The notes beneath the pieces were generated by a model. The model had not been told where the DNA came from, searched no databases, and saw only the letters and a program-made list of their open reading frames with translations. Shown in pieces: positions 47 to 14,109 of a stretch of 14,405 bases of DNA (positions are counted from its first letter, which is position 1; each line of letters opens with the position of its first letter). Location: the NCBI GenBank assembly GCA_003648575.1, contig QMPN01000052.1:1-14405 (forward strand), in the 5' to 3' direction. The stretch comes from Bacteroidota bacterium (GTDB lineage Bacteria > Bacteroidota > Bacteroidia > Bacteroidales > B18-G4). Position numbers and translations under genes: made by a program.

Positions 47-82
47 CACTTTAGCGTTTCTGAACAAAATAAAGCCTTTGTA

Positions 83-607: not shown

Positions 608-670
608 AGTTCCCGGTTCCCAGTTTCAAGTCTCTAGTTTCAAGTCTCCGCAACCCAATATCTGGTATCC
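608..670 (+). repeat. Array of nine in-phase 7-bp repeats (consensus RGTNTCN)
   Basis: Starting 3 bases after the stop at 604, the sequence divides into nine consecutive 7-mers at 608, 615, 622, 629, 636, 643, 650, 657 and 664. Most fit RGTNTCN or RGTTCCC. AGTTTCA then AGTCTCT occurs twice in tandem (622-649, 13 of 14 bases identical). The unit at 650 is the most divergent. The array ends 14 bases before the -7 box of the next gene. It is non-coding and contains no obvious terminator hairpin. Confidence 0.75.
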
Positions 671-684
671 GGCGTGAAAATTAC

Positions 685-692
685 TACCTTTG
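685..692 (+). promoter_or_regulatory. -7 promoter box (TACCTTTG) for the aminotransferase
   Basis: TACCTTTG followed by C matches TAnnTTTG exactly. The predicted transcript start is near 699, which rules out the in-frame GTG at 674 and supports the ATG at 719. A -33 TTG is not convincing; only a weak CTGG is found at 662-665. Confidence 0.6.
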
Positions 693-718
693 CTTCTCTT
701 TTTAAAAATGTAAGAAGT

Positions 719-1921
719 ATGGAAGCCTTATCGGAACGTATTAAGATGCTCTCAGAATCAGAAACCCTGGCTATGACCAGGAAGAGCCGTGAGCTGAGGG
801 CAAAAGGTTATGATGTGATCAACCTCAGCATAGGGGAACCCGATTTCAATACGCCTGAGTTCATTAAAGATGCAGCCCATGCAGCCATCGATCAGAACAA
901 AACACACTATCCACCGGTACCGGGATATCCAGAACTAAGGCAGGCCATTGCCGAGAAATTCAAAAGAGATAATGGTCTGGATTATTCCCCTGATCAGATC
1001 ATCGTATCGGGCGGCGCTAAGCATTCTATCGCCAACGTGATGATGTGCCTGGTGAATAAAGGGGATGAGGTAATCGTCCCTGCTCCTTACTGGGTATCAT
1101 ATAAAGAGATTATCAAGCTGGCAGAGGGTACAGCTGTGGTCGTTGATGCCAGCCTGGAAAATGATTTTAAGGTCACAGCGGAACAGATTGAAGCAGCCAT
1201 CACACCCAGGACAAAAGTATTGATATACAGTAGCCCGTGTAACCCCACAGGTTCTGTTTATTCTAAAGATGAGCTCGAAGCTATCGCCAGGGTCATTGCA
1301 GCACACGAGAACATTTATATTATCTCCGATGAGATATATGAGCTCATACGCTTTGAGGGCACTCATGAAAGTATCGCACAATTCGATTTTATAAAGGATC
1401 GTGTGATCACCATCAACGGTGTTTCTAAAGGTTTTGCCATGACCGGATGGCGTGTGGGATACCTCGCGGCCCCTCTTGAAATTGCCAGGGCATGTGATAA
1501 ACTCCAGGGACAGGTAACATCAGCTACCTGCTCTATTTCACAGTATGCTTCCATTGCAGCTATGAATTGTGATCCTGCTACCAATAAGGATGTCAGGAAA
1601 ATGGTGGCGACATTCGAAGAACGCCGCCAGCTTGTTTACGGACTGCTGGAGGAGGTTCCGGGGTTCAGGAATAACATGCCGGAAGGGGCCTTCTATTTCT
1701 TCCCGAATGTGACAGCGTATTATGGTAAGAAGTTCGGTGATGCGGAGATGAAGAACAGCAGCGACCTCTGCATGTACCTGCTCAACCATGCACATGTGGC
1801 CCTGGTGCCCGGCGACGCCTTCGGTAACCCGGATTGTATCAGGATATCCTATGCCACATCCAAGAAACTCCTAATCACGGCTATTACCAGGATCTCTGAT
1901 GCCCTGGCAGAACTTAAATAA
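719..1921 (+). CDS. aspC: Class I PLP-dependent aminotransferase, aspartate aminotransferase type
   Basis: The product has 400 residues, usual for the subgroup I-gamma bacterial enzymes that move the amino group between aspartate (or related amino acids) and 2-oxoglutarate in the cytoplasm. Visible motifs, counted from the ATG at 719, are SIGEPDF (37-43, substrate loop), PAPYWVSY (121-128, ring-stacking segment), SSPCNPTG (171-178, Asn175), SDEIYE (203-208, Asp204 to the pyridine nitrogen), SKGFAMTGWRVGY (236-248, Lys237 the Schiff-base lysine) and RISYA (375-379, Arg375 to the substrate carboxylate). All catalytic residues are present. The start at 719 gives the family N-terminus with LSESETLAM, and the predicted transcript start excludes the GTG at 674. 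Exact substrate range (Asp, aromatic, Lys/DAP) cannot be read from the motifs. The next gene follows after 9 bases, so the two are probably co-transcribed. Confidence 0.93.
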   Translation: MEALSERIKMLSESETLAMTRKSRELRAKGYDVINLSIGEPDFNTPEFIKDAAHAAIDQNKTHYPPVPGYPELRQAIAEKFKRDNGLDYSPDQIIVSGGAKHSIANVMMCLVNKGDEVIVPAPYWVSYKEIIKLAEGTAVVVDASLENDFKVTAEQIEAAITPRTKVLIYSSPCNPTGSVYSKDELEAIARVIAAHENIYIISDEIYELIRFEGTHESIAQFDFIKDRVITINGVSKGFAMTGWRVGYLAAPLEIARACDKLQGQVTSATCSISQYASIAAMNCDPATNKDVRKMVATFEERRQLVYGLLEEVPGFRNNMPEGAFYFFPNVTAYYGKKFGDAEMKNSSDLCMYLLNHAHVALVPGDAFGNPDCIRISYATSKKLLITAITRISDALAELK

Positions 1922-1930
1922 GCATCCGGC

Positions 1931-2932
1931 ATGGGCAGTTATTCTCAGCTAGTTGAATCTTTTGGCGACAAACGAGTTATGGTCGTTGGTGATGTGATGG
2001 TGGATTCCTACCTCTGGGGTGTGGTCGACCGTATATCGCCGGAAGCACCTGTTCCGGTTGTGGACGTGAACCACCGTGAGGAAAGACTCGGTGGTGCTGC
2101 CAATGTAGCAGTGAATATTAGTGCGCTGGGAGCGGAGGCAGTCCTTTGCTCTGTGGTTGGCACTGAAATGAAAGCGGATGTTTTTCTGAATATTATGGAA
2201 AAGGAAGGCCTTTCGAGTGCCGGGATATACCGGAGTGACGACAGGATCACCACTACCAAGTTCAGGATCATCGGTAACAACAGCCAGCTATTGAGGGTAG
2301 ATGAGGAGGTTACACACGACCTGAACCCGTTGGATGAAAAAGCATTTCTGGACTTATGCCTCCATCAGATCAAGGCCCGTAAGATAGATGTGATGATCAT
2401 CCAGGATTACAATAAAGGCATACTCACTCCTGTAGTGATTGAAGGATTGATCGTGATGGCCCGTGAAAATGATATTCCTGTAGTAGTAGATCCCAAGAAG
2501 AAAAATTTTGACCTCTACAGAAACGTTAGGCTTTTTAAGCCTAACCTCAAGGAGCTGAAAGAAGGCCTGAAAATTGATTTCAGGGAGCCCGATAAAGATA
2601 TTCTGAATGATACTGTGAACCTTCTGCGTGATGAGATCAATGTCGACATTGCCCTGATCACCCTCTCGGAACACGGTATTTATATTTCGGCCAGGAAGGA
2701 TCAGGTACTCGAAAGCCACCTGCTCCCCGCTCATATGAGAAATATTGCTGATGTTTCCGGTGCCGGTGATACGGTGGTGAGTGTAGCTTCTCTCTGCCTG
2801 GCGGCAGATGCTCCGCTGAAAATCATTGCTGAAGTCTCCAATCTGGCAGGTGGGATCGTATGTGAAAAGGTGGGTGTTGTGCCCATCGATCGCTCCCGCT
2901 TCATGGAGGAGTTAGGGAAACTTGGGGGGTAA
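1931..2932 (+). CDS. hldA: D-glycero-beta-D-manno-heptose-7-phosphate kinase (RfaE domain I)
   Basis: The 333-residue PfkB/ribokinase-fold enzyme phosphorylates heptose 7-phosphate at C1 on the way to ADP-heptose for the LPS inner core. The N-terminus VMVVGDVMVDSYLWG (16-30) with RISPEAPVPVV (34-44) and LGGAANVA (53-60) is characteristic of the HldE/RfaE kinase domain. The ATP site with catalytic Asp is DVSGAGD (274-280, Asp280). The C-terminus SNLAGGIVCEKVGVVPI also fits. The protein ends after this domain, so the cytidylyltransferase half (domain II) found in bifunctional HldE is absent and should be encoded elsewhere, as for organisms with separate HldA and HldC. It lies 9 bases after the aminotransferase. 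Its last codons contain the -33 element of the porT promoter. Confidence 0.92.
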   Translation: MGSYSQLVESFGDKRVMVVGDVMVDSYLWGVVDRISPEAPVPVVDVNHREERLGGAANVAVNISALGAEAVLCSVVGTEMKADVFLNIMEKEGLSSAGIYRSDDRITTTKFRIIGNNSQLLRVDEEVTHDLNPLDEKAFLDLCLHQIKARKIDVMIIQDYNKGILTPVVIEGLIVMARENDIPVVVDPKKKNFDLYRNVRLFKPNLKELKEGLKIDFREPDKDILNDTVNLLRDEINVDIALITLSEHGIYISARKDQVLESHLLPAHMRNIADVSGAGDTVVSVASLCLAADAPLKIIAEVSNLAGGIVCEKVGVVPIDRSRFMEELGKLGG

Positions 2933-2952
2933 AGGATAAATCAATAAGTTTG
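2922..2952 (+). promoter_or_regulatory. porT promoter: -33 TTG (2922) and -7 TAAGTTTG (2945)
   Basis: TTG at 2922-2924 inside the end of hldA, a 20-base spacer, and TAAGTTTG at 2945-2952 followed by C together make the most complete Bacteroidota promoter in the window. The predicted transcript start near 2959 gives a leader of about 60 bases before porT. The rest of this 89-base gap is AT-rich, with no further structure seen. Confidence 0.65.
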
Positions 2953-3021
2953 CAAAAATTATTATTCGCTGAAATAAACCTCTAAAACACCCGTTAATTA
3001 CATTATTAATACTGGGACTCT

Positions 3022-3795
3022 TTGAAGTTGATACGATACATAAGCATTTTTACCATTGCCTTGATCCTTCTGACTGCCGCTCCGGCACAGGCTCAGAAAA
3101 GAGGCGTGATGAACCTGCCAAACTATAATCATTCGAAGTATCATTTTGGGTTTATCCTTGCATTGAACCAGATGCACTTTACTGTGCAAATGAATGAAGG
3201 CTTTCAACGGGTTACCTATGATTCATTGCAGTCACCTGATATCTTTGCCGATTCACTTCACCTGCTGAATGTGGAATCTAAGCCAACAATTGGGTTTACC
3301 GTTGGTATCGTTGGAAACCTGAAGCTGGGTAAGTATTTCGACCTGCGGCTTATTCCATCACTTGCTTTTGGTGAGCGCTCCCTTGATTATTATATGGCGG
3401 CATTTGATGACGGACAACTCTCTTTTGTACAGATCAATAAGAGTGTTACCTCTGCACATATCGATATTCCCCTGCACGTGCGTTACCGATCCAAGCGGGT
3501 GCATAATTTTGGAGCCTATGTCCTGGGTGGCGCGAAATATGTGCTCGACCTGGCTGCCACACGTACCCAGAAGAAGGAAGATGATAATGAGACCCTGGTA
3601 AAATTAAGAAAACACGATATTGCTGCCGAAATAGGGGCAGGCTTTGAATTCTACAATGCCTGGTTTAAGCTCGGGATAGAAGTTAAGATGTCGTATGGCC
3701 TGTTTAACCTGCTCCAGGATGAAGATAATATCTATACAGGCGGCATTGCAAGCCTCAAGTCCAAAGTCTGGCAGATCTCATTTACATTCGAATAG
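3022..3795 (+). CDS. porT: PorT-like outer-membrane beta-barrel protein of type IX secretion
   Basis: The 257-residue protein begins with a clear signal peptide: basic residues, a hydrophobic core (about 6-19) and APAQA with likely cleavage after residue 24. Then comes a segment with NLPNYNHSKYHFGFILALNQMHF (about 31-53), which I recognise from PorT/SprT, an essential component of the Bacteroidota T9SS. The rest is alternating beta-strand character (GFTVGIVGNLKLGKYFDLRLIPSLAFGER, then later amphipathic strands) ending in WQISFTFE, typical of a barrel whose last residue is aromatic or nearly so. The start must be TTG at 3022: an in-frame stop lies at 3007-3009, no ATG or GTG intervenes, and the first internal Met (residue 30) would lose the signal peptide. 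It has its own promoter and is convergent with the sigma factor gene. A generic PorT-family barrel outside T9SS is the alternative. Confidence 0.75.
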   Translation: MKLIRYISIFTIALILLTAAPAQAQKRGVMNLPNYNHSKYHFGFILALNQMHFTVQMNEGFQRVTYDSLQSPDIFADSLHLLNVESKPTIGFTVGIVGNLKLGKYFDLRLIPSLAFGERSLDYYMAAFDDGQLSFVQINKSVTSAHIDIPLHVRYRSKRVHNFGAYVLGGAKYVLDLAATRTQKKEDDNETLVKLRKHDIAAEIGAGFEFYNAWFKLGIEVKMSYGLFNLLQDEDNIYTGGIASLKSKVWQISFTFE

Positions 3796-3799
3796 TTAG

Positions 3800-3827
3800 A
3801 GTGCCAGGTGCCAGATACATGGTGCCG
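3800..3827 (+). repeat. Four in-phase 7-bp repeats downstream of porT
   Basis: Four base pairs after the porT stop, 7-mers AGTGCCA (3800), GGTGCCA (3807), GATACAT (3814) and GGTGCCG (3821) follow each other in phase; a fifth (3828) is degenerate. They fit the loose RGTNYCN consensus of the other arrays. The array ends at the A-tract of the sigma-gene terminator. Confidence 0.6.
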
Positions 3828-3833
3828 GGCAAT

Positions 3834-3862
3834 AAAAAAGCCGAAACTTTTCAGTCCCGGCT
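3834..3862 (-). terminator. Rho-independent terminator of the sigma factor gene
   Basis: Read on the minus strand, AGCCGGGACT (5' arm), GAAA loop and AGTTTCGGCT (3' arm) form an uninterrupted 10-bp stem, with two G-U pairs in the middle, followed at once by a run of T. It starts 22 bases after the sigma stop codon. The plus-strand reading has an A-tract before the stem and only a broken T-run after it, so activity for porT would be weaker. Confidence 0.85.
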
Positions 3863-3884
3863 GTTTATCCTGTTGAATTGTTTA

Positions 3885-4391
3885 CTAATTGTCGAAATCC
3901 TTTAAGCCTGCCATCAGCTTTTTGCGTGTAAAGAATATCCTGCTCTTTACCGTGCCTATGGAAATCTCAAGTTCTTCTGCGATCTCTTTATATTTGAAGC
4001 CCTGTGTATGCATTTCGAATGGCACCCTGTGGTCATCAGAAAGGGTGTCGATCTCACGTAGTATCTCTTTTTCAGCTATTTCAGATTCGGGTGAAATTGA
4101 AACATGAGCACTGGAATTATTAATATGATAAAGATTATCTGTAGTATCGATAATGGTACGTGCGCGCACATTGCGACGGTAATTATTGATGAAGATATTC
4201 TTCATAATAGTAAATAACCAGGCTTTCAGATTTGTTGAATCAACAAACTTATCCTTGAAGGTGAGTGCCTTTAAAAAGGTCTCCTGGAGCAGGTCCTGGG
4301 CATCATCCTCATTATTGGTCAACTTCTTGGCAAAATATTGGAGATGTTTCTGCATCCCGGTGAGTTTATAGTTGAAGTCTATCGTGGTCAT
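3885..4391 (-). CDS. ECF-type RNA polymerase sigma factor
   Basis: The 168-residue protein has sigma region 2 at about 12-78, with DDAQDLLQETFLKAL (29-43) contacting core polymerase and AWLFTIMKNIFINNYRR (57-73) as the -10 recognition helix. Region 4 lies at about 107-162, with YKEIAEELEISIGTVKSRIFFTRKKL (134-159) as its helix-turn-helix. There is no region 1.1 or 3, as expected for ECF (group 4) factors. A good RBS (AGGA) precedes the ATG at 4391. No anti-sigma gene is next to it: downstream is porT on the other strand, upstream is the B12-domain regulator. This suggests control at the level of its own transcription rather than by sequestration. The adjacent gene makes a B12- or light-responsive role reminiscent of Streptomyces LitS plausible, but that is inference. 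A PorX/SigP-type role in T9SS control, given the neighbouring porT, is the alternative. Confidence 0.88.
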   Translation of the reverse strand: MTTIDFNYKLTGMQKHLQYFAKKLTNNEDDAQDLLQETFLKALTFKDKFVDSTNLKAWLFTIMKNIFINNYRRNVRARTIIDTTDNLYHINNSSAHVSISPESEIAEKEILREIDTLSDDHRVPFEMHTQGFKYKEIAEELEISIGTVKSRIFFTRKKLMAGLKDFDN

Positions 4392-4423
4392 GTTTTCCTG
4401 GTGTTTGTTTAATTACTTGATTG

Positions 4424-4455
4424 CAAAGTTAAACATATCCAATGACAAAAGTCAA
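4424..4455 (-). promoter_or_regulatory. Promoter of the sigma factor gene
   Basis: On the minus strand TAACTTTG followed by C (4431 to 4424) matches TAnnTTTG exactly, with TTG (4455 to 4453) 21 bases upstream as -33. The 8-mer TTAAACAT on the plus strand at 4429-4436 overlaps the upstream edge of the -7 box, and the same 8-mer occurs in the opposite orientation near the regulator's own start (5531-5538). It could be an operator, though it is AT-rich and may be chance. Further upstream is a 5-bp inverted repeat, AGGTA, 6 bases, TACCT (4529-4544). Nothing else is seen in the 208-base gap 4392-4599. Confidence 0.6.
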
Positions 4456-4599
4456 GTTTTTGGATAAGTATTTTAGAATAAATCTAAATAAAAATAGTAA
4501 ATAACTGAAAATCAGAGTAAAGGAATAAAGGTAAAAATGTACCTAAATAGAAGATAATTTGATAAAATAGGGTGTGAAGAGATGAGAAAAGGTATGAGT

Positions 4600-5490
4600 T
4601 TAGATCTTGCTCAGGACTTTATCGCGGAATTCGAGTACGGTAGGAAGCTTATGAATGGTCTTAGGAAGACTGTCACATATTTTATCTAGCTGTATACCGC
4701 CAACATATATTGCTTTTCCCTTAAAATGTGTCGAGAGCTCCTTCAGATAATCCCCCATCATAGAGGTTTCCACGGGGGTGGAAAAAGAGGTGACCAGCAT
4801 ATCGGGATCCACAAGTTTATCAATGGCTTCCACATCAAGCAGGGGTACGCCTTGCCCCAGAAAAATAGTTTTATGCCCTTTCTTTCGTATCAGGTAATTG
4901 TGTACAAGCAAACCAATATCGTGAAGCTCCCATTGCGGGAGGACCAGCAGGAAAGTCTTGCTGTTTTTGGACCTTTCTACCGGTAAACCGTCGATAGCTG
5001 CAAAAAGCTTTTGCCTGATCAGGTTTGATATAAAGTGCTCATGAACAGGGGTGATACTACCAATCTGCCATAGAATGCCAATCTTGTTCAAGAGTGGGTA
5101 GATGACATTGAACAGTGTATCTTCGAAGCCTATCTTAATGATGGAATTGTTTAATACATTCTCGAATTTGATCTCATCAAGGTCGATCATGGTAACGATA
5201 AGGTTCTCAATCTGCCCACTTCGCTCGGGCGATTGCACATTGTTAAGTTCAAGGATCTTCTGGCTCAGCTTCTTATTATCAAGTGTAGAGACTTTGGAAA
5301 TCTTGTGACCATTATTTACCAGCACCGAAATGTTTAACAATCGCTTCAGGTCATCATCGCAATAATAACGGATATTGGTATCCGTGCGTTCAGGGTGGAG
5401 AATATTATAACGCTTCTCCCATATCCTGATCGTATGAGCTTTGATTCCTGAAATTCTTTCCAGGTCTTTTATGGAATACTGACTTGTCAT
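4600..5490 (-). CDS. MerR-family regulator with B12-binding domain (CarH/LitR type)
   Basis: The 296-residue protein has three parts. A MerR DNA-binding domain opens it (YSIKDLERISGIKAHTIRIWEKRY at 5-28, then a wing with NIRYY). A helical cap domain follows, about 95-168. A Rossmann B12-binding domain closes it, about 178-296. The cap has W141, nine residues, then E151-H152, the W-x9-EH signature of CarH photoreceptors. The Rossmann part has E188-L-H-D-I-G193 (ExHxxG; His190 the candidate lower cobalt ligand), S235-F-S237 where S-x-L is usual, and G264-G265. The residue right after the cap Trp is Gln142; in Thermus CarH, from memory, it is His132, the upper ligand in the light state. The ATG at 5490 is preferred over the GTG at 5526, because MTSQYSIKDLE is the family N-terminus. 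Likely role: adenosylcobalamin-responsive, possibly light-responsive repressor of the adjacent sigma gene and of itself. Confidence 0.85.
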   Translation of the reverse strand: MTSQYSIKDLERISGIKAHTIRIWEKRYNILHPERTDTNIRYYCDDDLKRLLNISVLVNNGHKISKVSTLDNKKLSQKILELNNVQSPERSGQIENLIVTMIDLDEIKFENVLNNSIIKIGFEDTLFNVIYPLLNKIGILWQIGSITPVHEHFISNLIRQKLFAAIDGLPVERSKNSKTFLLVLPQWELHDIGLLVHNYLIRKKGHKTIFLGQGVPLLDVEAIDKLVDPDMLVTSFSTPVETSMMGDYLKELSTHFKGKAIYVGGIQLDKICDSLPKTIHKLPTVLEFRDKVLSKI

Positions 5491-5570
5491 TCGTTTGTTG
5501 TAGTGCTCATATAACAATTGTTTCACAAAAATGTTTAATGTTTATTAGTAAATTCGCAGCAAGCTTGATT
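5491..5570. promoter_or_regulatory. Divergent promoter region between the B12 regulator and the DUF2520 operon
   Basis: In this 80-base gap a near-match TAAATTCG followed by C (5549-5556, +) fits TAnnTTTG at 7 of 8 positions and would start the operon transcript close to the ATG at 5571. On the minus strand CATTTTTG (5533 to 5526) is a 7-of-8 match for the regulator. Two direct tandem copies of AATGTTT (5530-5543) overlap it and contain the 8-mer also found at the sigma promoter. They are candidate operator half-sites for autoregulation. Confidence 0.4.
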
Positions 5571-6290
5571 ATGGAAACAATACAAGATATCGTCATCGTT
5601 GGAGCAGGGAATGTTGGAACTCACCTGGCAGAGATCATGCTCGAAGCTGGTTTCACCATTTGCCAACTCGCTGAAAGAGGTGCGACAATTGTTCCCGGAA
5701 AGGACCTTTATATCATGGCCCTGCCGGATGCTGCGATGGAGGAGGCTCTCTCGGAAATGCCTTTAAAGGATGAAATGCTTGTTCATACTTCCGGATCTGT
5801 ACCCATGGAGATCCTTAGCAGGTATTCAGAGAACACAGGTGTTTTCTATCCTTTGCAAACTTTTACGAAAGGCAGGCCGATTGACATGAAAGAGGTTCCC
5901 CTGCTGATTGAGGCCAACCGCATCGATAATGAAAACATATTAGTGGAAGCAGCGAAGAAAATCAGCAATAAGGTGATCGTAGCTGATTCTGACAGGAGGC
6001 TTTCCCTTCATATTGCGGCAGTATTTGCTTCGAATTTCAGCAACCATATGTATGACATTGCCCGCCATTTGATGGAGGAACAGGAGCTGGATTTTGATCT
6101 CCTGTCGCCCCTGATTATCGAAACGGCAGCCAAAGCAAGGGCACTTGGCCCCGACAAGGCTCAAACGGGCCCGGCCAAAAGAAATGACCGTGAGGTCATC
6201 AGGAAACACCTCGATATGCTCAAAGGGCATGAAGCGATCAAGGAACTGTACAAAAGAATTTCTGACAATATTTCAGAACAGGAAAAATAA
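5571..6290 (+). CDS. DUF2520 Rossmann-fold protein (F420/NADP oxidoreductase-like), internally short
   Basis: The 239-residue protein opens with a dinucleotide-binding beta-alpha unit, IVIVGAGNVGTHLAE (7-21), and continues with DLYIMALPDAAMEE (45-58), HTSGSVPMEIL and GVFYPLQTF. It ends in an all-helical domain with IAAVFASNFSNHMYDIA and GPDKAQTGPAKRND. This is the DUF2520 family found in nearly all Bacteroidota upstream of kdsC, with unknown substrate. Compared with family members as I remember them, the segment between the first helix and DLYI is about 25 residues shorter. It reads GFTICQLAERGATIVPGKD, without the usual VYSRT-type strand end that contacts the cofactor ribose. The frame is open, so this is an in-frame change. 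The ATG at 5571 is chosen over earlier codons because the family begins just before the glycine motif and the upstream codons overlap the regulator. kdsC starts 5 bases after the stop. Confidence 0.8.
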   Translation: METIQDIVIVGAGNVGTHLAEIMLEAGFTICQLAERGATIVPGKDLYIMALPDAAMEEALSEMPLKDEMLVHTSGSVPMEILSRYSENTGVFYPLQTFTKGRPIDMKEVPLLIEANRIDNENILVEAAKKISNKVIVADSDRRLSLHIAAVFASNFSNHMYDIARHLMEEQELDFDLLSPLIIETAAKARALGPDKAQTGPAKRNDREVIRKHLDMLKGHEAIKELYKRISDNISEQEK

Positions 6291-6295
6291 AGCAG

Positions 6296-6817
6296 ATGAC
6301 GAATTATAAAGAACTCCTTAGAAATATCAGCACTTTTGTGTTCGATTATGATGGCGTGCTGACCGAAGGCATCGTGATGCTGACAGAAAAGGGCGAGCCT
6401 TTGCGTACAGCAAATGTCAGGGATGGCTATGCCTTGCAACTGGCAGTGAAGAAAGGATATCGTATTGCCGTGATATCCGGGGGTAAATCACCTTCCATGT
6501 CACACCGCCTGGCTTCATTGGGTATTAAAGACGTATTTCTGGGGGTGGAACATAAGATAGACGTATTTGAGAAATACCTCGAAGAAAACAATATCAGTCG
6601 CGAGGAAGTGGTTTATATGGGAGATGACATCCCTGATTACCATGTGATGCAGCAGGCCGGTGTTGCTGCATGCCCGGCCGATGCCGCAGAGGAGATCAGA
6701 TCCATATCGAAATATATTTCCCATTATGAAGGCGGGAGAGGCTGTGTAAGGGATATAATTGAACAAGTATTAAAACTGCAAAAAAACTGGATGGATGATG
6801 ACGCATTCAAGTGGTAG
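6296..6817 (+). CDS. kdsC: KdsC-type 3-deoxy-D-manno-octulosonate 8-phosphate phosphatase
   Basis: The 173-residue HAD-superfamily enzyme without a cap domain works as a tetramer, removing phosphate from Kdo-8-phosphate to give Kdo for lipid A-core assembly. Visible are motif I DYDGVLTEG (17-25, nucleophile Asp17 and acid/base Asp19), RDGYA (42-46), motif II SGG (61-63), Lys87, motif III GDDIPD (109-114) and the tail GGRGCVRDIIEQV (146-158) that reaches a neighbouring active site in this family. Length is normal. It is the second gene of the operon and overlaps the prenyltransferase start by 23 bases, which suggests coupled translation. YrbI-like phosphatases acting on other nonulosonates (such as KDN-9-P) share the motifs, so the substrate is inferred from the LPS genes nearby. 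Confidence 0.88.
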   Translation: MTNYKELLRNISTFVFDYDGVLTEGIVMLTEKGEPLRTANVRDGYALQLAVKKGYRIAVISGGKSPSMSHRLASLGIKDVFLGVEHKIDVFEKYLEENNISREEVVYMGDDIPDYHVMQQAGVAACPADAAEEIRSISKYISHYEGGRGCVRDIIEQVLKLQKNWMDDDAFKW

Positions 6818-7769: not shown

Positions 7770-7771
7770 AC

Positions 7772-8356
7772 ATGTTGCTGAAAAACCTGGACAAATATGA
7801 CATCATCCTGGCCTCAGGATCACCTCGCAGGCATGCCCTGCTTGCTGAGTTGGGAATTGATTTCACCATAGAAGCCAGGCCGGTTGAAGAAACATATCCC
7901 CCTGAATTGAAAGGGGAAGAGATTGCCATCCATTTGAGTTGTTTGAAAGCTGATGCTTTCGAATCAGCCTTCTTTACAGAAAAGACCCTGCTGATCACTG
8001 CCGACACCATTGTCTGCCTCGATGGAAAGATTTTGGGAAAACCGGCTTCCCGTGAGGAGGCCATGGCCACATTATGGCAGCTTTCGGGAAAGATGCACCA
8101 GGTTATCACAGGCCTCAGCCTGAGAAGCATTCAGAAAGAGGTGAACTTTGCCGTGAGTACGGATGTTTACTTTAAAGAGCTTAAAGAGGAAGAGATCGCC
8201 TTCTATGTGGATCAGTACAGGCCATACGACAAGGCCGGTGCCTACGGCATTCAGGAGTGGATCGGATATGTCGGGATAGAAAAAGTCGATGGCTCTTTTT
8301 ACAATGTAATGGGCTTGCCGGTACTGAAGCTATATGAAGAGTTGGGCAAGTTTTAG
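7772..8356 (+). CDS. maf: Maf-family nucleoside triphosphate pyrophosphatase (YhdE-like)
   Basis: The 194-residue cytoplasmic enzyme hydrolyses non-canonical or surplus nucleoside triphosphates to the monophosphate and pyrophosphate. Conserved parts are LASGSPRR (13-20, phosphate-binding), ITADTIV (75-81, Asp78 the general base), GKP (89-91), LSGKMHQVITG (104-114) and YDKAGAYGIQEW (152-163). The Arg/Gln pattern with Gln161 fits the dTTP/UTP-preferring YhdE subgroup rather than the m7GTP-preferring YceF subgroup; this assignment is from memory of the motif. In other phyla Maf is linked to septum inhibition and often called a septum formation protein. It is the fourth gene of the operon, 2 bases after ubiA and 24 before surE. 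Confidence 0.9.
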   Translation: MLLKNLDKYDIILASGSPRRHALLAELGIDFTIEARPVEETYPPELKGEEIAIHLSCLKADAFESAFFTEKTLLITADTIVCLDGKILGKPASREEAMATLWQLSGKMHQVITGLSLRSIQKEVNFAVSTDVYFKELKEEEIAFYVDQYRPYDKAGAYGIQEWIGYVGIEKVDGSFYNVMGLPVLKLYEELGKF

Positions 8357-8380
8357 TAATTTTATACTGGGATCATAAAA

Positions 8381-9151
8381 ATGAAAAAACCACACATACT
8401 GGTTACAAACGATGATGGGTATACAGCACCGGGAATTCTTAAGCTGGTCGCCATCATGCAGGAATTGGGCGACGTTACAGTCGTAGCTCCGGAGGAACCC
8501 ATGTCGGGGGCCGGGCATGCCATTACCGTGCGCAATCCGCTCAGGCTGAAGAAAAGATCAGAAGAAAACGGACTTGAAGTATGGTCCTGCAGGGGCACAC
8601 CCGTCGATTGCGTGAAACTCGGCGAACAGATCGTACTTCGTAAGAAGCCAGATCTGCTTGTTTCAGGGATCAACCATGGCTCAAATGCAGCAGTGAACAT
8701 TGTTTACTCCGGAACCATGGGTGCCGTGCTGGAAAGTACCATTAGCGGCATACCATCCATCGGATTCTCCCTGTGTGACTATCGACATGATGCGGACTTC
8801 AGCAAGGTAGATAAATATATCAGGAAGATATGTATGGAAGTTCTTGAAAAAGGCTTGCCTGAGCGTACCTGCCTGAATGTGAATATCCCTGCTGTGAACG
8901 GAGCCGATATCAAGGGCATCAAAGTATGCAGCCAGGCCAATGCCCGCTGGGTGGAGGAGTATGATGAGCGTAAAGATCCTGCCAACAGGGACTATTACTG
9001 GCTTACCGGCAAGTTTGAACTGCTCGATGAAAGAAAAGAAACAGATGAAGCAGCGCTTCGCGACAATTATGTTTCGGTGGTACCGGTTCATTACGACCTG
9101 ACAGCCCACCATGCGATGGAGCATCTTCATAAATTTGATCTGGATGTTTAA
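8381..9151 (+). CDS. surE: 5'/3'-nucleotidase SurE
   Basis: The 256-residue metal-dependent nucleoside monophosphate phosphatase, also active on short polyphosphate in E. coli, is linked to stationary-phase survival. The metal site is complete: NDDG (10-13, Asp11 and Asp12), MSGAGHAIT (41-49, Ser42) and SGINHGSNAAVN (95-106, Asn98), followed by IVYSGTMGAVLES. The later segments (TCLNVNIPAV and VSVVPVHYDLTAHHAM) are also typical. Length is normal. The ATG at 8381 leaves a 24-base gap after maf, the largest gap inside the operon. Its last three codons overlap the start of the next small gene by 8 bases. Confidence 0.93.
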   Translation: MKKPHILVTNDDGYTAPGILKLVAIMQELGDVTVVAPEEPMSGAGHAITVRNPLRLKKRSEENGLEVWSCRGTPVDCVKLGEQIVLRKKPDLLVSGINHGSNAAVNIVYSGTMGAVLESTISGIPSIGFSLCDYRHDADFSKVDKYIRKICMEVLEKGLPERTCLNVNIPAVNGADIKGIKVCSQANARWVEEYDERKDPANRDYYWLTGKFELLDERKETDEAALRDNYVSVVPVHYDLTAHHAMEHLHKFDLDV

Positions 9152-9416
9152 CAGGAATTCAATGTGGTTCGGTATACTGATCGGCATACTCATGCCATTA
9201 GTCACCTATGGCTTGTTGTATGGAATACTATATCTCTATCAAGACCTGTCGGCTGCCCCCTTGCAGTTCGATGAATCCCTGCTTCAGCTTATCAGCCCGG
9301 TGATCAACCTCTTCTTTATCCGATATTATTTCGTTAACAAAAAATATGACGATACGGGGAAGGGCTTGTTGTTAGTGACTTTTGTATACGTGATTGCTTA
9401 TTTTGTTATTAGATGA
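9144..9416 (+). CDS. Small three-TM membrane protein between surE and lpxB
   Basis: The 90-residue hydrophobic protein has three likely membrane segments, about 7-28 (WFGILIGILMPLVTYGLLYG), 46-62 (around LLQLISPVINLFFIRYYF) and 73-89 (GLLLVTFVYVIAYFVI). I do not recognise a named family. Proteins of this size and layout between surE and lpxB occur in Bacteroidota, as I recall. The ATG at 9144 overlaps the end of surE by 8 bases, and the stop overlaps the lpxB start as ATGA, so translation is probably coupled on both sides. The upstream codon at 9111 is less likely because it would put 41 bases inside surE. The ATG at 9162 is another option. Position suggests a membrane role near lipid A synthesis, but that is only inference. 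Confidence 0.72.
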   Translation: MFNRNSMWFGILIGILMPLVTYGLLYGILYLYQDLSAAPLQFDESLLQLISPVINLFFIRYYFVNKKYDDTGKGLLLVTFVYVIAYFVIR

Positions 9417-10534
9417 AATATTACATCATAGCCGGTGAAGCCTCTGGCGACCTGCATGCTTCCAAGTTGATGAATGGCTTGAAAAAGCAGGATGCGGATG
9501 CTGATTTTCGTTGCTGGGGAGGCGACCTGATGGAAGATGCAGGTGGAGTCCTGGTGAAGCATTACCGCGACCTCGCATTCATGGGCTTCGCGGAGGTGTT
9601 GATGAACATCAGGACCATTTTGCGGAATATGAAATTCTGCAAGCAGGACATCCTCGAATATAAGCCTGATGTACTCATACTGGTCGACTATCCCGGTTTC
9701 AACCTGCGGATGGCAGAGTTTGCTGCAAAGCAGGGGATCAGGGTATTCTATTACATCTCACCACAGGTGTGGGCATGGAAGCGCTCAAGAGTGCATAAGA
9801 TCAAAAAGTATGTGGAACGGATGTACGTGATCCTGCCATTCGAAAAAGATTTTTATGCCAAATTCGATTATAACGTAGATTTTGTAGGCCATCCCTTGCT
9901 GGATGCAATTCAAAATGAAACAGATGATGAAAAAAACATCAGGATAGAGGCCGGACTTGATAGTAAAGCTGTCGTGGCTGTCCTGCCGGGAAGCCGCAAG
10001 CAGGAGATCAAAAAGATGCTGCCGGTGATGATGGAGATGACAAAACATTTTCCTGACCACCAGTTTGTGATTGCTGCCGCTCCTTCAGCTCCTGATAGCT
10101 ATTATGATGCTGCTGACGGAATTGCAGGTGTGAAGATCATAAAAGGCAAGATGCATGCTATTTTGCGTATTGCGGATGCGGCCATGGTTACCTCCGGAAC
10201 AGCTACACTGGAAACAGCCCTTTTCAAGGTTCCTGAGGTAGTCTGTTATAAGGGCGGATGGATCTCATATTACATAGCCAAAAGGCTAATAAAAGACATA
10301 AAATATATTTCCCTGGTTAACCTAATTATGGATCGCGAAGTAGTAAAAGAACTGATTCAGGGTGAATTTAATGCGGGCCGTCTCAAAAGTGAGCTTACCC
10401 GATTGATATCTGATGATCAATACCGCTCACAAATGCTTTCCGACCTGGAAACCCTGCATAAAAAGCTAGGTGGCCCCGGCGCATCGGAAATGGCAGCACA
10501 GCTGATATACCAACGGCTACAGCAGTCTAAGTGA
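9413..10534 (+). CDS. lpxB: Lipid-A-disaccharide synthase
   Basis: The 373-residue GT19 glycosyltransferase, peripheral on the inner membrane, joins UDP-2,3-diacylglucosamine and lipid X to give the lipid A disaccharide. Conserved segments are GEASGD at the N-terminus (8-13), CWGGDLMEDAGG, LAFMGFAEVL, LVDYPGFNLRMA (donor/acceptor region), ISPQVWAWKRSRVHKIKKYVERMYVILPFEKDFY, VGHPLLD, VLPGSRKQEI and TSGTATLETAL (UDP-binding C-terminal domain). Length is usual. It is the last gene of the operon that begins at 5571, its start overlapping the previous stop by 4 bases (ATGA). Two bases after its stop begins the largest repeat array of the window. Confidence 0.95.
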   Translation: MKYYIIAGEASGDLHASKLMNGLKKQDADADFRCWGGDLMEDAGGVLVKHYRDLAFMGFAEVLMNIRTILRNMKFCKQDILEYKPDVLILVDYPGFNLRMAEFAAKQGIRVFYYISPQVWAWKRSRVHKIKKYVERMYVILPFEKDFYAKFDYNVDFVGHPLLDAIQNETDDEKNIRIEAGLDSKAVVAVLPGSRKQEIKKMLPVMMEMTKHFPDHQFVIAAAPSAPDSYYDAADGIAGVKIIKGKMHAILRIADAAMVTSGTATLETALFKVPEVVCYKGGWISYYIAKRLIKDIKYISLVNLIMDREVVKELIQGEFNAGRLKSELTRLISDDQYRSQMLSDLETLHKKLGGPGASEMAAQLIYQRLQQSK

Positions 10535-10536
10535 TG

Positions 10537-10578
10537 AGTATTGAGTAATGAGTATCGAGTATCGAGTATCGAGTATCG
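10537..10578 (+). repeat. Six in-phase 7-bp repeats (AGTATCG type) after lpxB
   Basis: Beginning 2 bases after the lpxB stop: AGTATTG (10537), AGTAATG (10544) and then four perfect AGTATCG units (10551-10578). This is the most regular heptamer array of the window and ends at an A-rich spacer before the array of opposite orientation. Confidence 0.9.
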
Positions 10579-10584
10579 AAAATA

Positions 10585-10612
10585 ACTCAACACCCAACAC
10601 TCAACACCCACT
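10585..10612 (-). repeat. 7-bp repeats in inverse orientation (ACTCAAC/ACCCAAC)
   Basis: ACTCAAC and ACCCAAC alternate at 10585, 10592 and 10599, then ACCCACT at 10606. Their reverse complements (GTTGAGT, GTTGGGT) rotate to AGTGTTG and GGTGTTG, that is, the same RGTNTYG family as the preceding array on the opposite strand. The two arrays are partly self-complementary and could form an imperfect hairpin. Confidence 0.8.
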
Positions 10613-10644
10613 GTGTCCGCCGAAGCGGAGCGAAGGTGGAACAC
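10613..10644. repeat. GC-rich hairpin element embedded in the heptamer array
   Basis: Two exclusive folds are visible. One is a tight hairpin TCCGC-CGAA-GCGGA (10616-10629). The other is a longer one in which GTGTCCGCC (10613-10621) pairs with GGTGGAACAC (10635-10644), with one bulged A and one G-U pair. The element interrupts the ACTCAAC/ACCCAAC array, which resumes at 10643, shifted by 2 bases out of 7-base phase. There is no T-run after it, so it is not a classic terminator. It resembles REP-like intergenic elements. Confidence 0.6.
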
Positions 10645-10670
10645 TCAACACCCAACCCCGAACCCTCAAC
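10643..10670 (-). repeat. Second inverse 7-bp repeat block upstream of comEC
   Basis: ACTCAAC (10643), ACCCAAC (10650), CCCGAAC (10657) and CCTCAAC (10664) continue the family after the hairpin element. The remaining 76 bases to the comEC start (10671-10746) are AT-rich; no exact TAnnTTTG box was found there. Confidence 0.75.
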
Positions 10671-10746
10671 CCTTTAGTGTGACATTTTCTGATTTACCGT
10701 ATTAATAGGTAGAAGGAATCTTTTCATCATCTATTAATGCTTACTC

Positions 10747-12786
10747 ATGTGGAGCCGTATTCCCCTGCTGAGGTTGATCTTGCCCTATATTGCGGGTGTG
10801 CTTATGGCCTATGGACAAGGCCTGGAGGCAAACAATTATCTATTATGGATTGCTGCTATTCCGCTTATGGCCGGCGGGATATTTTATGGCATTTTATTTA
10901 GCTATCGCAGCAGGTGGTTATATGGCAGTTTCATCATTCTGTTCATGTTTCTCAGTGGGCTGTTTTTTACAGGCAAAAAAGAGTCTTCCAGGAAAATGAT
11001 CCTTTCTGAGGTCCCGTCAGGAGAGCATATGTACCTGTGCAGCCTGGATGAGACCTTCGAAATGCGTGCACGCTCATGCAGGGGTAAAGTGAGGGTGATA
11101 TCAGTATGCGACAGCCTGGGCTGGCATGAGATGCATGCTGATATGATGCTGTATACAGAACAGGATAGCAGCTTGCTGAGTGTGCCGGCGGGAACATATT
11201 TGTTAATATCTGCAGATCTCAGAGAGCTCAGGTCCCCTGCAAACCCTGCGGAGTTTGATTATAAGGAATACCTGGCCCGGAAAGGAATTTTCCACAGTGC
11301 ATATCTCAAAAAGGGACAATGGCAGATCAGTGATCATGCTGCCGGTTTTGATTTGTTGCGTTTAGCGGATGGAATCAGGCAAAGCCTGTTGGCGAAGCTC
11401 CGTGCAAATGGTATCCGGGGAAAGTATTTTGGCATTTCTTCTGCTCTATTGCTGGGAGAAGACAGCCAGCTCGATGCCGACATACGTGATGTGTATGCCA
11501 GGGCAGGAGCCATGCATATCCTTTGTGTATCGGGCCTTCATGTTGGGGTCATCTTCCTGGTGCTTAATTTTATGTTTGGAATTTTGAAGAGGATAAGGGT
11601 AGGAAAACTCCTTTTGCCTGTTTTGCTTATGGCCTGCATCTGGTCCTACGCCCTTATTACCGGTCTTGCACCCCCGGTGGTCAGGGCTTCCTGTATGATT
11701 AGTTTTTTTATACTTGGCAATGCTCTGGGGAGGCATAAGAATGTGTACAACACCCTTGCTGCATCTGCCATATTAATGCTGTTGTTCGATCCATATGTCC
11801 TTTTCGGTGCAGGTTTCCAGCTGTCGTATACCGCAGTGCTGGGCATCATTTCTCTTCAAAAGCCCATCAGCAACTTGCTTTATTTCAGGTATAAGCTTAC
11901 CAACAGCATCTGGTCTATCACCTCTGTATCCATAGCCGCCCAGTTGGGTACCTTTCCCGTGCTGCTCTACTATTTCCATCAGTTTCCACTGTATAGCCTG
12001 CTGACCAACCTTATTGTGATCCCTCTTTCTTCCTTGATCATATACGCAGGCATCCTTCTCTTTATGATGCCGGCATCCAGCATAGCAGCTGAAGCAGCCA
12101 GCTGGATCTTCCTGAAATTGATTGGGATCATGGATGCCGGAGTTAGCCTGGTAGATCGCATCCCATACGGCATGCTTGAAGGAATATATGTCGACCTGCC
12201 AATGGCAATACTGATTGGGTTGATCATATGTTGCTTTTCTGCTTTCCTGATCGGAAAACAAAAACTTTTTCTTATTGCGGGACTGATGTCGCTGATGGTA
12301 TTTTCTGCTCATCGCCTTAACAGCAATTATCTCAGACAAGGCCAGAAGATCTTTATTGTATATTCTATCCGCGGACACTCAGCCTATGATATCATACAAG
12401 GGTCATCACACACTTTTATGGCTGACTCCTCAATCCTTGCATCTGAAGGAAAGCTTGATTACAGCATCAAGCCCTTCTGGCTCGAAAAAGGCCTGGATGC
12501 TCCACAAATCTGTCTTCTTCCTGATACTAAAATACCAAATATAACTGGCTCTCGTATTGTCATCTGGCAGGACAAATTTCCTCACTGCCATCCGCCCCGC
12601 GAAAGGCTCAAACTGGATTACCTCATACTCAGGGGAGATTGTCCTTTTGATCCGGAAGATGTATTTCAGTGGTTTGATCCAGGATTGGTGATCATCGACT
12701 CATCAGTGCCGCCATGGGTGAAAGCCCCGGAAAGGGATTATAGATTTTGGGATGTGAGGAAAAACGGCGCTTTCCTGAAGGATTAG
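10747..12786 (+). CDS. comEC: ComEC/Rec2-family DNA-uptake channel protein without a metallo-beta-lactamase core
   Basis: The 679-residue polytopic inner-membrane protein belongs to the family that moves single-stranded DNA into the cytoplasm in natural transformation. N-terminal membrane segments (about 8-75) lead into a soluble DUF4131/OB-like part (about 85-200, with a RSPANPAEFDYKEYLARKGI stretch at about 160). The Competence domain (about 220-500) follows, with LLLGEDSQL, AGAMHILCVSGLHVG (about 253-267), GLAPPVVRASCMI and LFGAGFQLSYTAVLGI. The C-terminal region after about 523 lacks the HxHxDH zinc motif of full ComEC proteins. It is only about 155 residues and looks like a degenerate version of that domain, as I recall for many Bacteroidota. 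The ATG at 10747 begins with the typical WSRIPLLRLILPYIAGV. It is convergent with the T9SS cargo gene, leaving 17 bases between stops. Competence in this organism is not shown by the gene alone. Confidence 0.88.
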   Translation: MWSRIPLLRLILPYIAGVLMAYGQGLEANNYLLWIAAIPLMAGGIFYGILFSYRSRWLYGSFIILFMFLSGLFFTGKKESSRKMILSEVPSGEHMYLCSLDETFEMRARSCRGKVRVISVCDSLGWHEMHADMMLYTEQDSSLLSVPAGTYLLISADLRELRSPANPAEFDYKEYLARKGIFHSAYLKKGQWQISDHAAGFDLLRLADGIRQSLLAKLRANGIRGKYFGISSALLLGEDSQLDADIRDVYARAGAMHILCVSGLHVGVIFLVLNFMFGILKRIRVGKLLLPVLLMACIWSYALITGLAPPVVRASCMISFFILGNALGRHKNVYNTLAASAILMLLFDPYVLFGAGFQLSYTAVLGIISLQKPISNLLYFRYKLTNSIWSITSVSIAAQLGTFPVLLYYFHQFPLYSLLTNLIVIPLSSLIIYAGILLFMMPASSIAAEAASWIFLKLIGIMDAGVSLVDRIPYGMLEGIYVDLPMAILIGLIICCFSAFLIGKQKLFLIAGLMSLMVFSAHRLNSNYLRQGQKIFIVYSIRGHSAYDIIQGSSHTFMADSSILASEGKLDYSIKPFWLEKGLDAPQICLLPDTKIPNITGSRIVIWQDKFPHCHPPRERLKLDYLILRGDCPFDPEDVFQWFDPGLVIIDSSVPPWVKAPERDYRFWDVRKNGAFLKD

Positions 12787-12808
12787 ATCCTGGTGATTAA
12801 TGATTAGT
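12781..12808. repeat. Short 7-bp periodic stretch (GATTARN) across the convergent stops
   Basis: GATTAGA (12781), an unrelated 7-mer (12788), GATTAAT (12795) and GATTAGT (12802) are in phase. The first contains the comEC stop and the last the stop of the T9SS cargo gene. Period agrees with the other arrays but the word differs, so membership is uncertain. No terminator hairpin is visible between these convergent genes. Confidence 0.4.
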
Positions 12809-14096
12809 GGAGAATTAATTTCCTGCTTAGGCTTTGATTGTTTGAACTCAAGCGTATAAAGTATATTCCTTTTAGCTTATCATTATTCCATATAATAGAG
12901 TGCTTTCCTTTATTTTCCGGACCCATATTCAATATTTCTACCACCCTGCCGAATATATCAACGATACTCAATTGGATATGTGTTGCTTCTTCAAGTTCAT
13001 ATTGGATGGTAACCGCACCCTCCGATGGGTTTGGAAAAGGGGGCAGAAGAGATACTCGGATATCGGATTTCGAATATCGAATATCGGATATCGAAACGAC
13101 TCCATTTTCCTGGTATGCGATCAATCCTGTATCTGCCGTGCCAATCCAGAGGTTGCCAAGTTCGTCTGCTGCCAGGGCCTGGATGTGCTCCGAAAGCAAG
13201 CCTGAATTTGTCGGAAGATAGGTGGTCCAGTCGGCACCATCGTACTTAATCAGGCCTTTGGAATGCCCGATCCAGGTGTTCCCGCTGTAGTCGAAGGTGA
13301 TATCGAAGACATATCCGATGGCCGTATCAGGGATGCCGGTGATATTTTCGTCATAAACAGTCCAGACTCCTGCGAAATAATTACAAAACACTCCATCACT
13401 GCCTACCCATACGCTGTTTTCGTGATTGATGGCGATGGTGGATGTGAAATACATTTCCACCGGCATGGCCGTGCCCGTCCAGTCGCCGGTGTATTTAAAT
13501 ATCGTATTTCCGGTGCCTCCGGCCCAGACTGAGTTATCCGGGCCGACATCTACACTGCTCAGGTAATCGGGAAGGATGGAGTTTCCGGAGTGATGTTGCT
13601 CCCATACAGATCCGTTGTACATAAAGAGTCCCTGGCCACCGGTGGTAGCCCAGATATTCCCGTAAAGATCAGATTCAATGCTGAAAACAGGAACATTAAC
13701 GCTAACAGGAAAAGGATGCTTTTCCCATATGCTGCCATCGAAGGAAGAAACTTCCCCGTGGTTGGTTCCAACCCATACCACATCATCTGCATCGATATGT
13801 ACAGATCCTATGAAATTTGAGTTTAAGCTGCTGTTCAGTGAGTCGTATACGAACCATGTATAGCCATCGAATACTGCCAGTCCGCCATCGGTACATATGC
13901 CACCCCCGCAAACGGGTTCTGTGCCTATCCATTTCCTTCCTTCTGCATCTACTTCAATATCGGAAATATACCTTGATGGAATGGTACAGGTCCATGGGTC
14001 CCAGTACATCCATGCAGGATTCTGGGATCGTGTGATCCCGCTCACCATCAGGAGGCCTATCACTAATATTATGTATCTGACGACAGGTCTCTTCAT
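12804..14096 (-). CDS. Secreted seven-bladed beta-propeller protein with T9SS sorting domain
   Basis: The 430-residue protein has an N-terminal signal sequence (basic MKRPVVR, then IILVIGLLMVSGI, likely cleaved near residue 24). Seven repeats of the two-component-regulator propeller type follow, with WxGT-like cores near residues 56, 107, 149, 191, 230, 275 and 317, each followed by an FDGxxW-like strand. A linker at about 331-350 and a type A T9SS C-terminal domain (352-430) complete it. The domain opens with PFPNPSEG and contains LSIVDIFGRVV, GKHSIIWN and KGIYFIRLSS, ending in SRKLILH. Such domains direct export through T9SS and surface attachment or release. The linker contains the 7-residue repeat SDIRYSK/SDIRVSL made by a DNA heptamer array. 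No enzymatic motif is seen; binding or sensing is guesswork. The ATG at 14096 is chosen because it directly begins the signal peptide. It follows the carboxyltransferase gene by 13 bases. Confidence 0.87.
   Translation of the reverse strand: MKRPVVRYIILVIGLLMVSGITRSQNPAWMYWDPWTCTIPSRYISDIEVDAEGRKWIGTEPVCGGGICTDGGLAVFDGYTWFVYDSLNSSLNSNFIGSVHIDADDVVWVGTNHGEVSSFDGSIWEKHPFPVSVNVPVFSIESDLYGNIWATTGGQGLFMYNGSVWEQHHSGNSILPDYLSSVDVGPDNSVWAGGTGNTIFKYTGDWTGTAMPVEMYFTSTIAINHENSVWVGSDGVFCNYFAGVWTVYDENITGIPDTAIGYVFDITFDYSGNTWIGHSKGLIKYDGADWTTYLPTNSGLLSEHIQALAADELGNLWIGTADTGLIAYQENGVVSISDIRYSKSDIRVSLLPPFPNPSEGAVTIQYELEEATHIQLSIVDIFGRVVEILNMGPENKGKHSIIWNNDKLKGIYFIRLSSNNQSLSRKLILH
13060..13094. repeat. Five tandem 7-bp repeats (ATATCGR) inside a coding region
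   Basis: ATATCGG (13060), ATTTCGA (13067), ATATCGA (13074), ATATCGG (13081) and ATATCGA (13088) are contiguous, with a degenerate unit just before (13053). Rotated, they differ by one base from the AGTATCG unit after lpxB. The unit is nearly its own reverse complement at the ATATCGAT-like core. Seven is not a multiple of three, so the array encodes a 7-residue repeat per three units. The reading frame stays open. Confidence 0.85.
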
Positions 14097-14109
14097 AAAT
14101 ATTGTTTTG

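Follow-up and report, generated by a model that had tools for sequence, protein, structure and literature searches.

Short tandemly repeated repetitive sequences (STRRs), the heptamers of cyanobacteria, share a seven-base unit, an intergenic position, many local words and a variable copy number with a set of tandem arrays that we studied in a 14,405-nt stretch of DNA from a Bacteroidota bacterium (contig QMPN01000052.1, assembly GCA_003648575.1), referred to here as the window. Long simple sequence repeats (LSSRs) of cyanobacteria have been described (Mrazek 2007, as cited in PMC4692102 and PMC4679880), and among 7006 prokaryotic genomes heptamers were the most abundant intergenic tandem repeat across a wide range of species, with no clear clue to their function (Mori 2018, PMC6344855). 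The GGGAATC-type heptamers of Xanthomonas and Nostoc resemble the arrays studied here in that sister species mostly share their gap positions but differ there in array length and sequence, and in forming some inverted pairs; they have been explained via G-quadruplexes (Rehm 2015, PMC4692102). TAACTGA repeats occur in Beggiatoaceae, cyanobacteria and five Bacteroidetes (MacGregor 2015, PMC4679880). These are also heptamer direct repeats, partly from Bacteroidetes, with one set just 3' of a stop codon and some near other heptamers, but they consist of a single fixed word, lie mostly 5' of starts in the Beggiatoaceae genome and were read as translational regulation (PMC4679880). An initial interpretation of the window made from its letters alone (the sequence-only reading) had known of no described Bacteroidota counterpart of its heptamers, and the MacGregor repeats are one already published.

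The second related system is the intervening sequences (IVSs) of 23S rRNA, which are parasitic rRNA-gene elements excised post-transcription, and whose S23p protein is a four-helix homopentamer of unknown function (PMC4990558). The 23S IVS of Coxiella burnetii, with an S23p open reading frame (ORF), is 428 nt long (PMC4990558). The family of this protein, PF05635, is the four-helix "23S rRNA-intervening sequence protein" (IVP, S23p), for which structures 2gsc and 2rld have been solved; the name of the former (XCC0516) places it in X. campestris (PMC4990558). In the passages drawn on here, no link to IVP is made for the LSSRs or for the GGGAATC heptamers (PMC4692102, PMC4679880), and no gene-family association is given in the genome survey (PMC6344855). 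We recognised no literature joining IVP and heptamers among open-licence PMC full texts, preprints not included. The dominance of heptamers and their presence in Bacteroidetes were already known, and what is new is their link to IVP genes and IVS-like elements.

A search with LpxB, which is encoded in the window, yielded 80 Bacteroidota loci (L001-L080), the nearest of which (L001, LpxB 77% identical) belongs to a Bacteroidota metagenome-assembled genome of 2.1 Mb, here G001, the closest relative. Analyses of G001 showed that heptamer arrays go together with IVP genes. Several of its arrays were matched by a complementary partner array, and three small ORFs enclosed by paired arrays were PF05635 members (E 1e-37, 7e-35 and 3e-22). 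In total G001 had 11 IVP genes, six of which had period-7 arrays on both sides and one period-9 arrays on both sides, and none of the 14 control genomes had any. To extend the comparison, the best IVP from each of 30 other genomes of the same class was taken with 150 nt of flank. A period-7 array lay within this distance of 18 of the 30 class genes and 6 of the 11 G001 genes, compared with 0/30 genes for GIY-YIG nucleases and 1/30 for LpxB. When periods 7, 8 and 9 were pooled, the counts were 24/30 and 7/11 for IVP, versus 1/30 and 4/30 for the respective controls. The unit was not strictly seven, the arms of IVP genes L189, L196, L298 and L321 having a period of 8 or 9.

The arrays on the two sides of an IVP gene were largely inverse complements of each other. 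Each upstream flank was compared with the reverse complement of its own downstream flank (L191 and one GIY-YIG locus were dropped for short flanks), and the median inverted match was 20.5 in G001 (n=10) and 18.5 in the class (n=30), against baselines of 9 for mismatched loci, 9 (G001) and 10 (class) for the direct orientation, and 9 for LpxB. The element at L185 folded into a single hairpin with the arms as its outer stem (z -5.75). Two ORF-less inverted array pairs of G001 were also tested, and these folded stably with an extended stem; the inverted-pair hairpins of L177 (z -9.5) and L169 (z -9.4) were very stable.

Plasmids of the Nostocales with flanks 91-98% identical provided a comparison of sites with and without the element, and showed that array, IVP gene and inverted array are present or absent as one unit of about 420-500 bp at stop codons. 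At site 1, genes X and Y lay 13 bp apart in the empty form (L310, L311 and, by coverage, four more records), whereas the filled form had 441 bp between them in L297 and 427 bp in L296; the unit began directly 3' of the stop codon TAA, and GTAA recurred at its far end. At site 2, genes A and B were 3 bp apart in the plasmids lacking the unit (L308, L314-L316) and 420 bp apart in those with it (L299, L317). At site 3, genes B and C overlapped by one base or were separated by 2 bp without the unit (L299, L314-L316), and stood 505 bp apart in L308, which has it. A single operon thus contains the element either in A-B or in B-C, depending on the plasmid. Filled and empty versions with matching flanks, the mark of a mobile element, were therefore seen at three sites for IVP-bearing elements. 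As possible target-site duplications, the junctions had direct repeats (GTAA, TTCTA and ATG); these were short, at 3-5 bp, and are partly explained by the repeat words; two of them include the stop codon. In the elements inspected, the arms enclosed no gene but PF05635, with neither a transposase nor a reverse transcriptase there, and no search was made for a helper acting in trans. The difference between filled and empty sites probably reflects gain of the unit and not its precise loss.

Site 1 also provided an intermediate form. In Nostoc C052 (L312) the left array followed the stop codon together with the first part of the IVP gene (76.6% identical over 133 bp), and the right array was lacking, so this solo post-stop array is visibly a remnant. 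A short form at a fourth site, between cas6 and cas4 (L313), was discarded as a candidate remnant because it contains an unrelated insert. These sites also bear on whether IVP elements land by preference in existing heptamer arrays, which would then be no part of them. Solo arrays outnumber IVP-bearing ones and one IVP gene (L203) lies inside a direct array, as this explanation would have it, but insertion into a direct array would give direct and not inverted flanks, and the empty gaps of 0-13 bp at the three sites had no array. We regard it as extremely unlikely.

The association extended to other phyla. Plasmid-borne IVP genes were mostly cyanobacterial (24 of 30 records), and 18 of these 30 records were examined, 15 cyanobacterial and three other. 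Period-7 arrays were present at 12 of the 15 cyanobacterial loci and period 7-9 arrays at 14, on both sides at eight; all three other loci had period 7-9 arrays. The IVP gene of Riemerella had period 7 on both sides and that of Gemmatirosa period 8 on both sides. The IVP gene of Azospirillum lipoferum (PF05635 E 2e-33) sits within 23S rRNA (RF02541, 2529 bits) and is a classical IVS, yet its arms are inverted heptamer arrays and the whole unit folds (z -13), which links the elements between cistrons with the IVS family already known. A location in large-subunit rRNA was found only for L320 among 20 loci scanned. Like the 23S IVSs, the elements described here have a similar length, complementary stem-loop ends, the same protein family in the loop and a sporadic distribution; they differ in their position at stop codons between protein-coding genes, in being present several times in a genome, in having tandem-repeat arms, and in that excision by RNase III is, for them, presumed.

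Elements were also found between codirectional operon genes, for example cas6-cas4 and cas10-cmr3. On cyanobacterial plasmids, cas operons of types III-B and I-D contained IVP genes with repeat arms (L298 1495-1851, L303 1492-1851 and L305 1489-1857), and these genes look like element insertions and not cas genes. The IVP itself looks to be under purifying selection. After codon pairs with less than 62% identity or fewer than 80 codons were dropped, the 20 most alike pairs were taken, and dN/dS was 0.07-0.22 in 12 of the 13 pairs with a defined ratio, the pairs not being independent and some having dS above 1; the exception, L296/L297, had almost no changes.

At the genome level, PF05635 matches were present in 157 of 198 class genomes (153 above the curated cut-off). 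A degenerate heptamer pattern was counted across the same genomes, together with its reversed form, and matches could overlap within arrays. The reversed pattern, meant as a control, proved to be a heptamer family itself and not a clean background; the counts were analysed apart and together. They correlated with IVP copy number (rho 0.60 and 0.53 for the two patterns separately, 0.66 together; kinship not controlled). At least two heptamer matches were found in 2 of the 41 IVP-free genomes versus 95 of the 157 IVP-bearing ones, and the median number of matches was 0, 0, 3.5, 8 and 19 for genomes with 0, 1-2, 3-5, 6-8 and at least 9 IVPs, respectively. Intergenic lag-7 arrays numbered 0 in 10 of the IVP-free genomes and 16 in 10 IVP-rich genomes (in 7 of the 10), from 388 and 380 kb.

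The sequence-only reading had held that the arrays keep their period while their words differ by locus, and had proposed comparing lag 7 with other lags, and array positions with stop codons, over a wider sample. Both comparisons were run on the relatives and upheld it. Fifty contigs of G001 (259 kb) were sampled without C19 and C216, which had been picked for their arrays, so that the sample leans against arrays. At a score of 12 this sample contained 34 lag-7 arrays versus 0 to 5 at each of lags 4-6 and 8-13, and the 80 Bacteroidota loci with the window (81 sequences, 1.38 Mb) contained 59 versus 0 to 10 at the same lags. In the 50 contigs, 36 of 39 arrays were intergenic, intergenic bases making up 7.2%. 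For placement, arrays without a gene on both sides were dropped (9/37 in G001 and 4/67 in L002-L080). Within 10 nt of a stop codon there were 12 of 28 arrays in G001 (5.6 expected) and 25 of 63 in L002-L080 (11.1 expected), about a twofold enrichment that none of 500 simulations reached. Start codons showed no clear enrichment (3 vs 3.8 expected in G001; 12 vs 8.3, standard deviation 2.0, in L002-L080). The stop enrichment was strongest in codirectional gaps (10/22 vs 3.4 and 19/50 vs 9.3, for G001 and L002-L080) and weaker in convergent gaps (2/4 vs 2.1 and 9/24 vs 4.9). Placement after stops may represent a choice of target, or merely those insertions between cistrons that survive.

Comparison of three close Bacteroidales (L068, L070 and L071, aligned blocks 88-96% identical) revealed how arrays change. 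One array adjoining a stop codon had about 22 units in L071 (8002-8160), 7 in L068 (5138-5184) and 3 in L070 (5211-5229), and at another stop the word in L068 differed from that in L070 and L071; arrays therefore change in steps of seven, and the word at a given stop is replaceable. The first of these arrays is a ready system for measuring slippage. Adjacent units were alike and changed stepwise along arrays. The slippage/replication hypothesis put forward by Mrazek and co-authors, as described in PMC4692102 and PMC4679880, would have heptamers arise in phase and neutrally, under weak selection, with 7 favoured by the replication machinery and the IVP association secondary. The 3, 7 and 22 units, the similarity of adjacent units, the presence of arrays within ORFs (such as 13056-13093 of the window) and the number of arrays with no IVP nearby all accord with it. 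Inverted arms are not expected from it, nor are the virtual absence of arrays from IVP-free genomes, the joint appearance of arrays and ORF at otherwise empty gaps of 0-13 bp, or the change of word between close kin at one stop, and as the full explanation we consider it unlikely. Growth by slippage, as the sequence-only reading had suggested, is borne out as far as copy number is concerned, but neutral slippage alone leaves the origin of the arrays unexplained. The same is true of protein binding along the DNA, a further role it had offered, as the arrays are inverted arms of IVP-gene elements.

The arrays of the window itself and the features next to them are listed in Table 1.

Table 1. Repeat arrays of the window and features adjoining them.
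Feature	Position	Strand	Remarks
DUF7935 gene	68..604	+	PF25589 E 2e-57; array 1 comes after its stop codon
Array 1, degenerate heptamers AGTTTCA/AGTCTCY	608..670	+	3 nt 3' of stop at 604; lag-7 score 13 for 609-648
Array 2, three to four GGTGCCA-like units, hairpin-forming	3800..3830	+	4 nt 3' of stop at 3795
lpxB	9413..10534	+	PF02684 E 1e-90; the largest array cluster of the window comes after its stop
Array 3, GAGTATC x6	10535..10579	+	Abuts lpxB stop; lag-7 score 30.5; also found by TRF
Array 4, inverse orientation, GGTGTTG on - strand	10585..10612	-	Lag-7 score 11.5 (scan: 10585-10610); imperfect hairpin with array 3
GC-rich palindrome around GTGTCCGCCGAAGCGGAGCGAAGGTGGAACAC	10611..10644		Breaks up heptamer array; read directly from the sequence
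Array 5, array 4 resumed past the palindrome	10640..10673	-	Lag-7 score 14.5
Array 6, GATATCG/AATATCG	13056..13093	+	Lag-7 score 21; within an ORF, not 3' of a stop

A scan of the window at lags 4 to 30 (score threshold at least 9) identified five arrays at lag 7 (609-648, 10535-10579, 10585-10610, 10640-10673 and 13056-13093; scores in Table 1), one at lag 8, one at lag 30 and otherwise only multiples of 7. In 300 Markov-1 surrogates the mean was 0.09 lag-7 arrays, with a maximum count of 2 and a maximum score of 11.5, which is also the score of the array at 10585-10610. The program TRF agreed on these five, and the period-7 arrays proposed from the letters were accordingly real in five of six cases. 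Both traits of the STRR/LSSR repeats, an excess of the seven-base period over other periods and, in the G001 sample, a mostly intergenic position, were found. The sixth array, proposed at 3800-3827 (array 2), was detected as a tandem repeat by neither TRF nor the lag scan; it is unsupported as such, and a hairpin describes it better (z -3.74, 0 of 200 shuffles). TRF also gave 2.1 copies at 5530-5544, inside a region (5491-5570) that had been called free of arrays. The consensus RGTNYCN that had been put forward suits part of the arrays, but not the array at 13056-13093, which has A at position 2, or the inverse arrays, which have T at position 6. Arrays do begin 0 to 4 nt after the stops at 604, 3795 and 10534; array 6 is not post-stop.

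The possibility that the arrays are host devices at transcript 3' ends, that is, terminators or stabilising hairpins placed after stops in whose loops IVP genes settle, is also raised by these data. Arrays come after stops, the inverted pairs at L177 and L169 form their very stable hairpins, and the array 2 hairpin of the window stands between convergent genes. This explanation does not fit arrays between codirectional operon genes such as cas6-cas4 and cas10-cmr3, the peak of stop enrichment in codirectional gaps, empty sites wholly without arrays, or the lack of structure in the fold of array 1 (z -0.5), and we find it very unlikely. The transcript 3'-end structure suggested by the sequence-only reading holds to the extent that inverted arrays yield transcript hairpins.

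In the window, the extended stem of complementary ends that the IVP elements share with IVSs was represented only by arrays 3 and 4, which pair weakly: the fold of 10533-10680, in which they have opposite orientations, gave z -2.85, and one of 200 shuffles was equally good. The ORF in the loop, present in the elements of relatives, was absent, and the arrays do not lie in rRNA. The words of the window arrays were compared with those of the IVP arms of G001, with phase-permuted controls, and three of the six (608-670, 10585-10612 and 10640-10673) matched better than about 99% of controls. Array 1 matched the arm at L192 (1.3% of controls as good), and arrays 4 and 5 matched that at L188 (1% and 0.7% of controls as good). 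G001 also had an array 3' of its own lpxB, with another word (CAGCYAC); no G001 orthologues of DUF7935 and the outer-membrane protein were found, so comparison at the same position was confined to lpxB.

Together, these data suggest that heptamer arrays of this kind are inverted arms of IVS-like elements with a four-helix IVP gene, a relation visible only through other genomes, and we infer that the window arrays represent ORF-less or decayed arms of such elements between cistrons. Several observations weigh against this reading. The window contained no IVP gene or recognisable remnant of one (open segments of at least 50 aa; best tblastn E 0.07), arrays 2 and 6 had no match to the G001 IVP arms, and for array 3 13% of controls were as good. 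Most arrays were solo, only 6/37 in G001 and 3/67 in L002-L080 being within 500 bp of an IVP gene, and 10/37 and 11/67 had an inverted partner no more than 700 nt away (1 and 5 in the reversed-sequence control). Conversely, a period 7-9 array was missing at 4/11 G001 and 6/30 class IVP genes, and flanks were more alike in the direct than in the inverted orientation at 2/30 class and 2/15 cyanobacterial loci, strongly so at L203. Kinship was not controlled for in the correlations of IVP copy number with heptamer counts in the 198 genomes, and array density was not significantly related to IVPs per Mb across 79 loci of 3 to 21 kb (rho 0.17, p 0.14). One genome of 7.2 Mb (G002) was an extreme outlier, with 1199 matches of one heptamer pattern and only four IVPs. 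Finally, GIY-YIG flanks exceeded the 99% cross-locus level at 11/29 loci in the inverted and 12/29 in the direct orientation, without period 7.

Since the flanks of GIY-YIG genes also have inverted repeats, the IVP is marked by period-7 inverted arms and not by inverted flanks as such. The small GIY-YIG genes were considered as a second heptamer carrier and ruled out, with a period-7 array at 0/30. The strong flank repeats of these nuclease genes (L225-L254, Bacteroidota), direct at 12 and inverted at 13 of 29 loci and without period-7 arrays, suggest a different small mobile element.

Other features of the window were noted in passing. A profile search identified genes for DUF7935, a class I aminotransferase, a PfkB kinase, an outer-membrane barrel, an extracytoplasmic function (ECF) sigma factor, a MerR/B12 regulator, LpxB, ComEC and a propeller protein with a type IX secretion system (T9SS) sorting domain; the Rfam and tRNA searches of the window gave no matches. 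Array 6 lies within an ORF (12804-14141, - strand) with Reg_prop and Por_Secre_tail matches, where it forms the linker preceding the T9SS sorting domain, three units making seven codons. Heptamer arrays within open frames were also seen at L129 (3125-3164) and L158 (5293-5324). The palindrome at 10611-10644 was single-copy within the window, its core had no match in the 259-kb G001 sample, and it appears to be another small repeat inserted there.

The model that we favour, and consider likely as a whole, is that the arrays are a family of IVS-like hairpin elements between genes, the window arrays being short or decayed forms. In this model a complete element spans about 420-500 bp and consists of a heptamer array, an IVP/S23p (PF05635) gene and the inverse-complement array; it is inserted where the upstream gene stops, at the stop codon. 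Its transcript would fold so that the two arrays form one long stem with the ORF in the loop, an anatomy like that of the 23S rRNA IVSs. Such a hairpin could be tolerated between cistrons because its excision from the mRNA, presumably after processing by RNase III, would damage neither neighbour. The S23p/IVP ORF is optional in short IVSs, and ORF-less hairpins and single arms would be short or decayed forms of the element. In-phase slippage could then stretch or shrink the arms, repeated arms being able to pair in any register, and slippage with copying between the arms may keep them alike. The IVP probably helps the element to spread.

A wider proposal, which in our judgment falls just short of being probable, is that heptamers, the commonest bacterial intergenic tandem repeat, are largely the live and dead arms of one widespread class of mobile RNA hairpins, which has IVP as its sole protein, jumps to intercistronic stops and includes the 23S IVSs as its rRNA members. 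If the arrays are IVS arms, many genes annotated as "four helix bundle protein", including those in cas operons, would be element cargo and not operon members.

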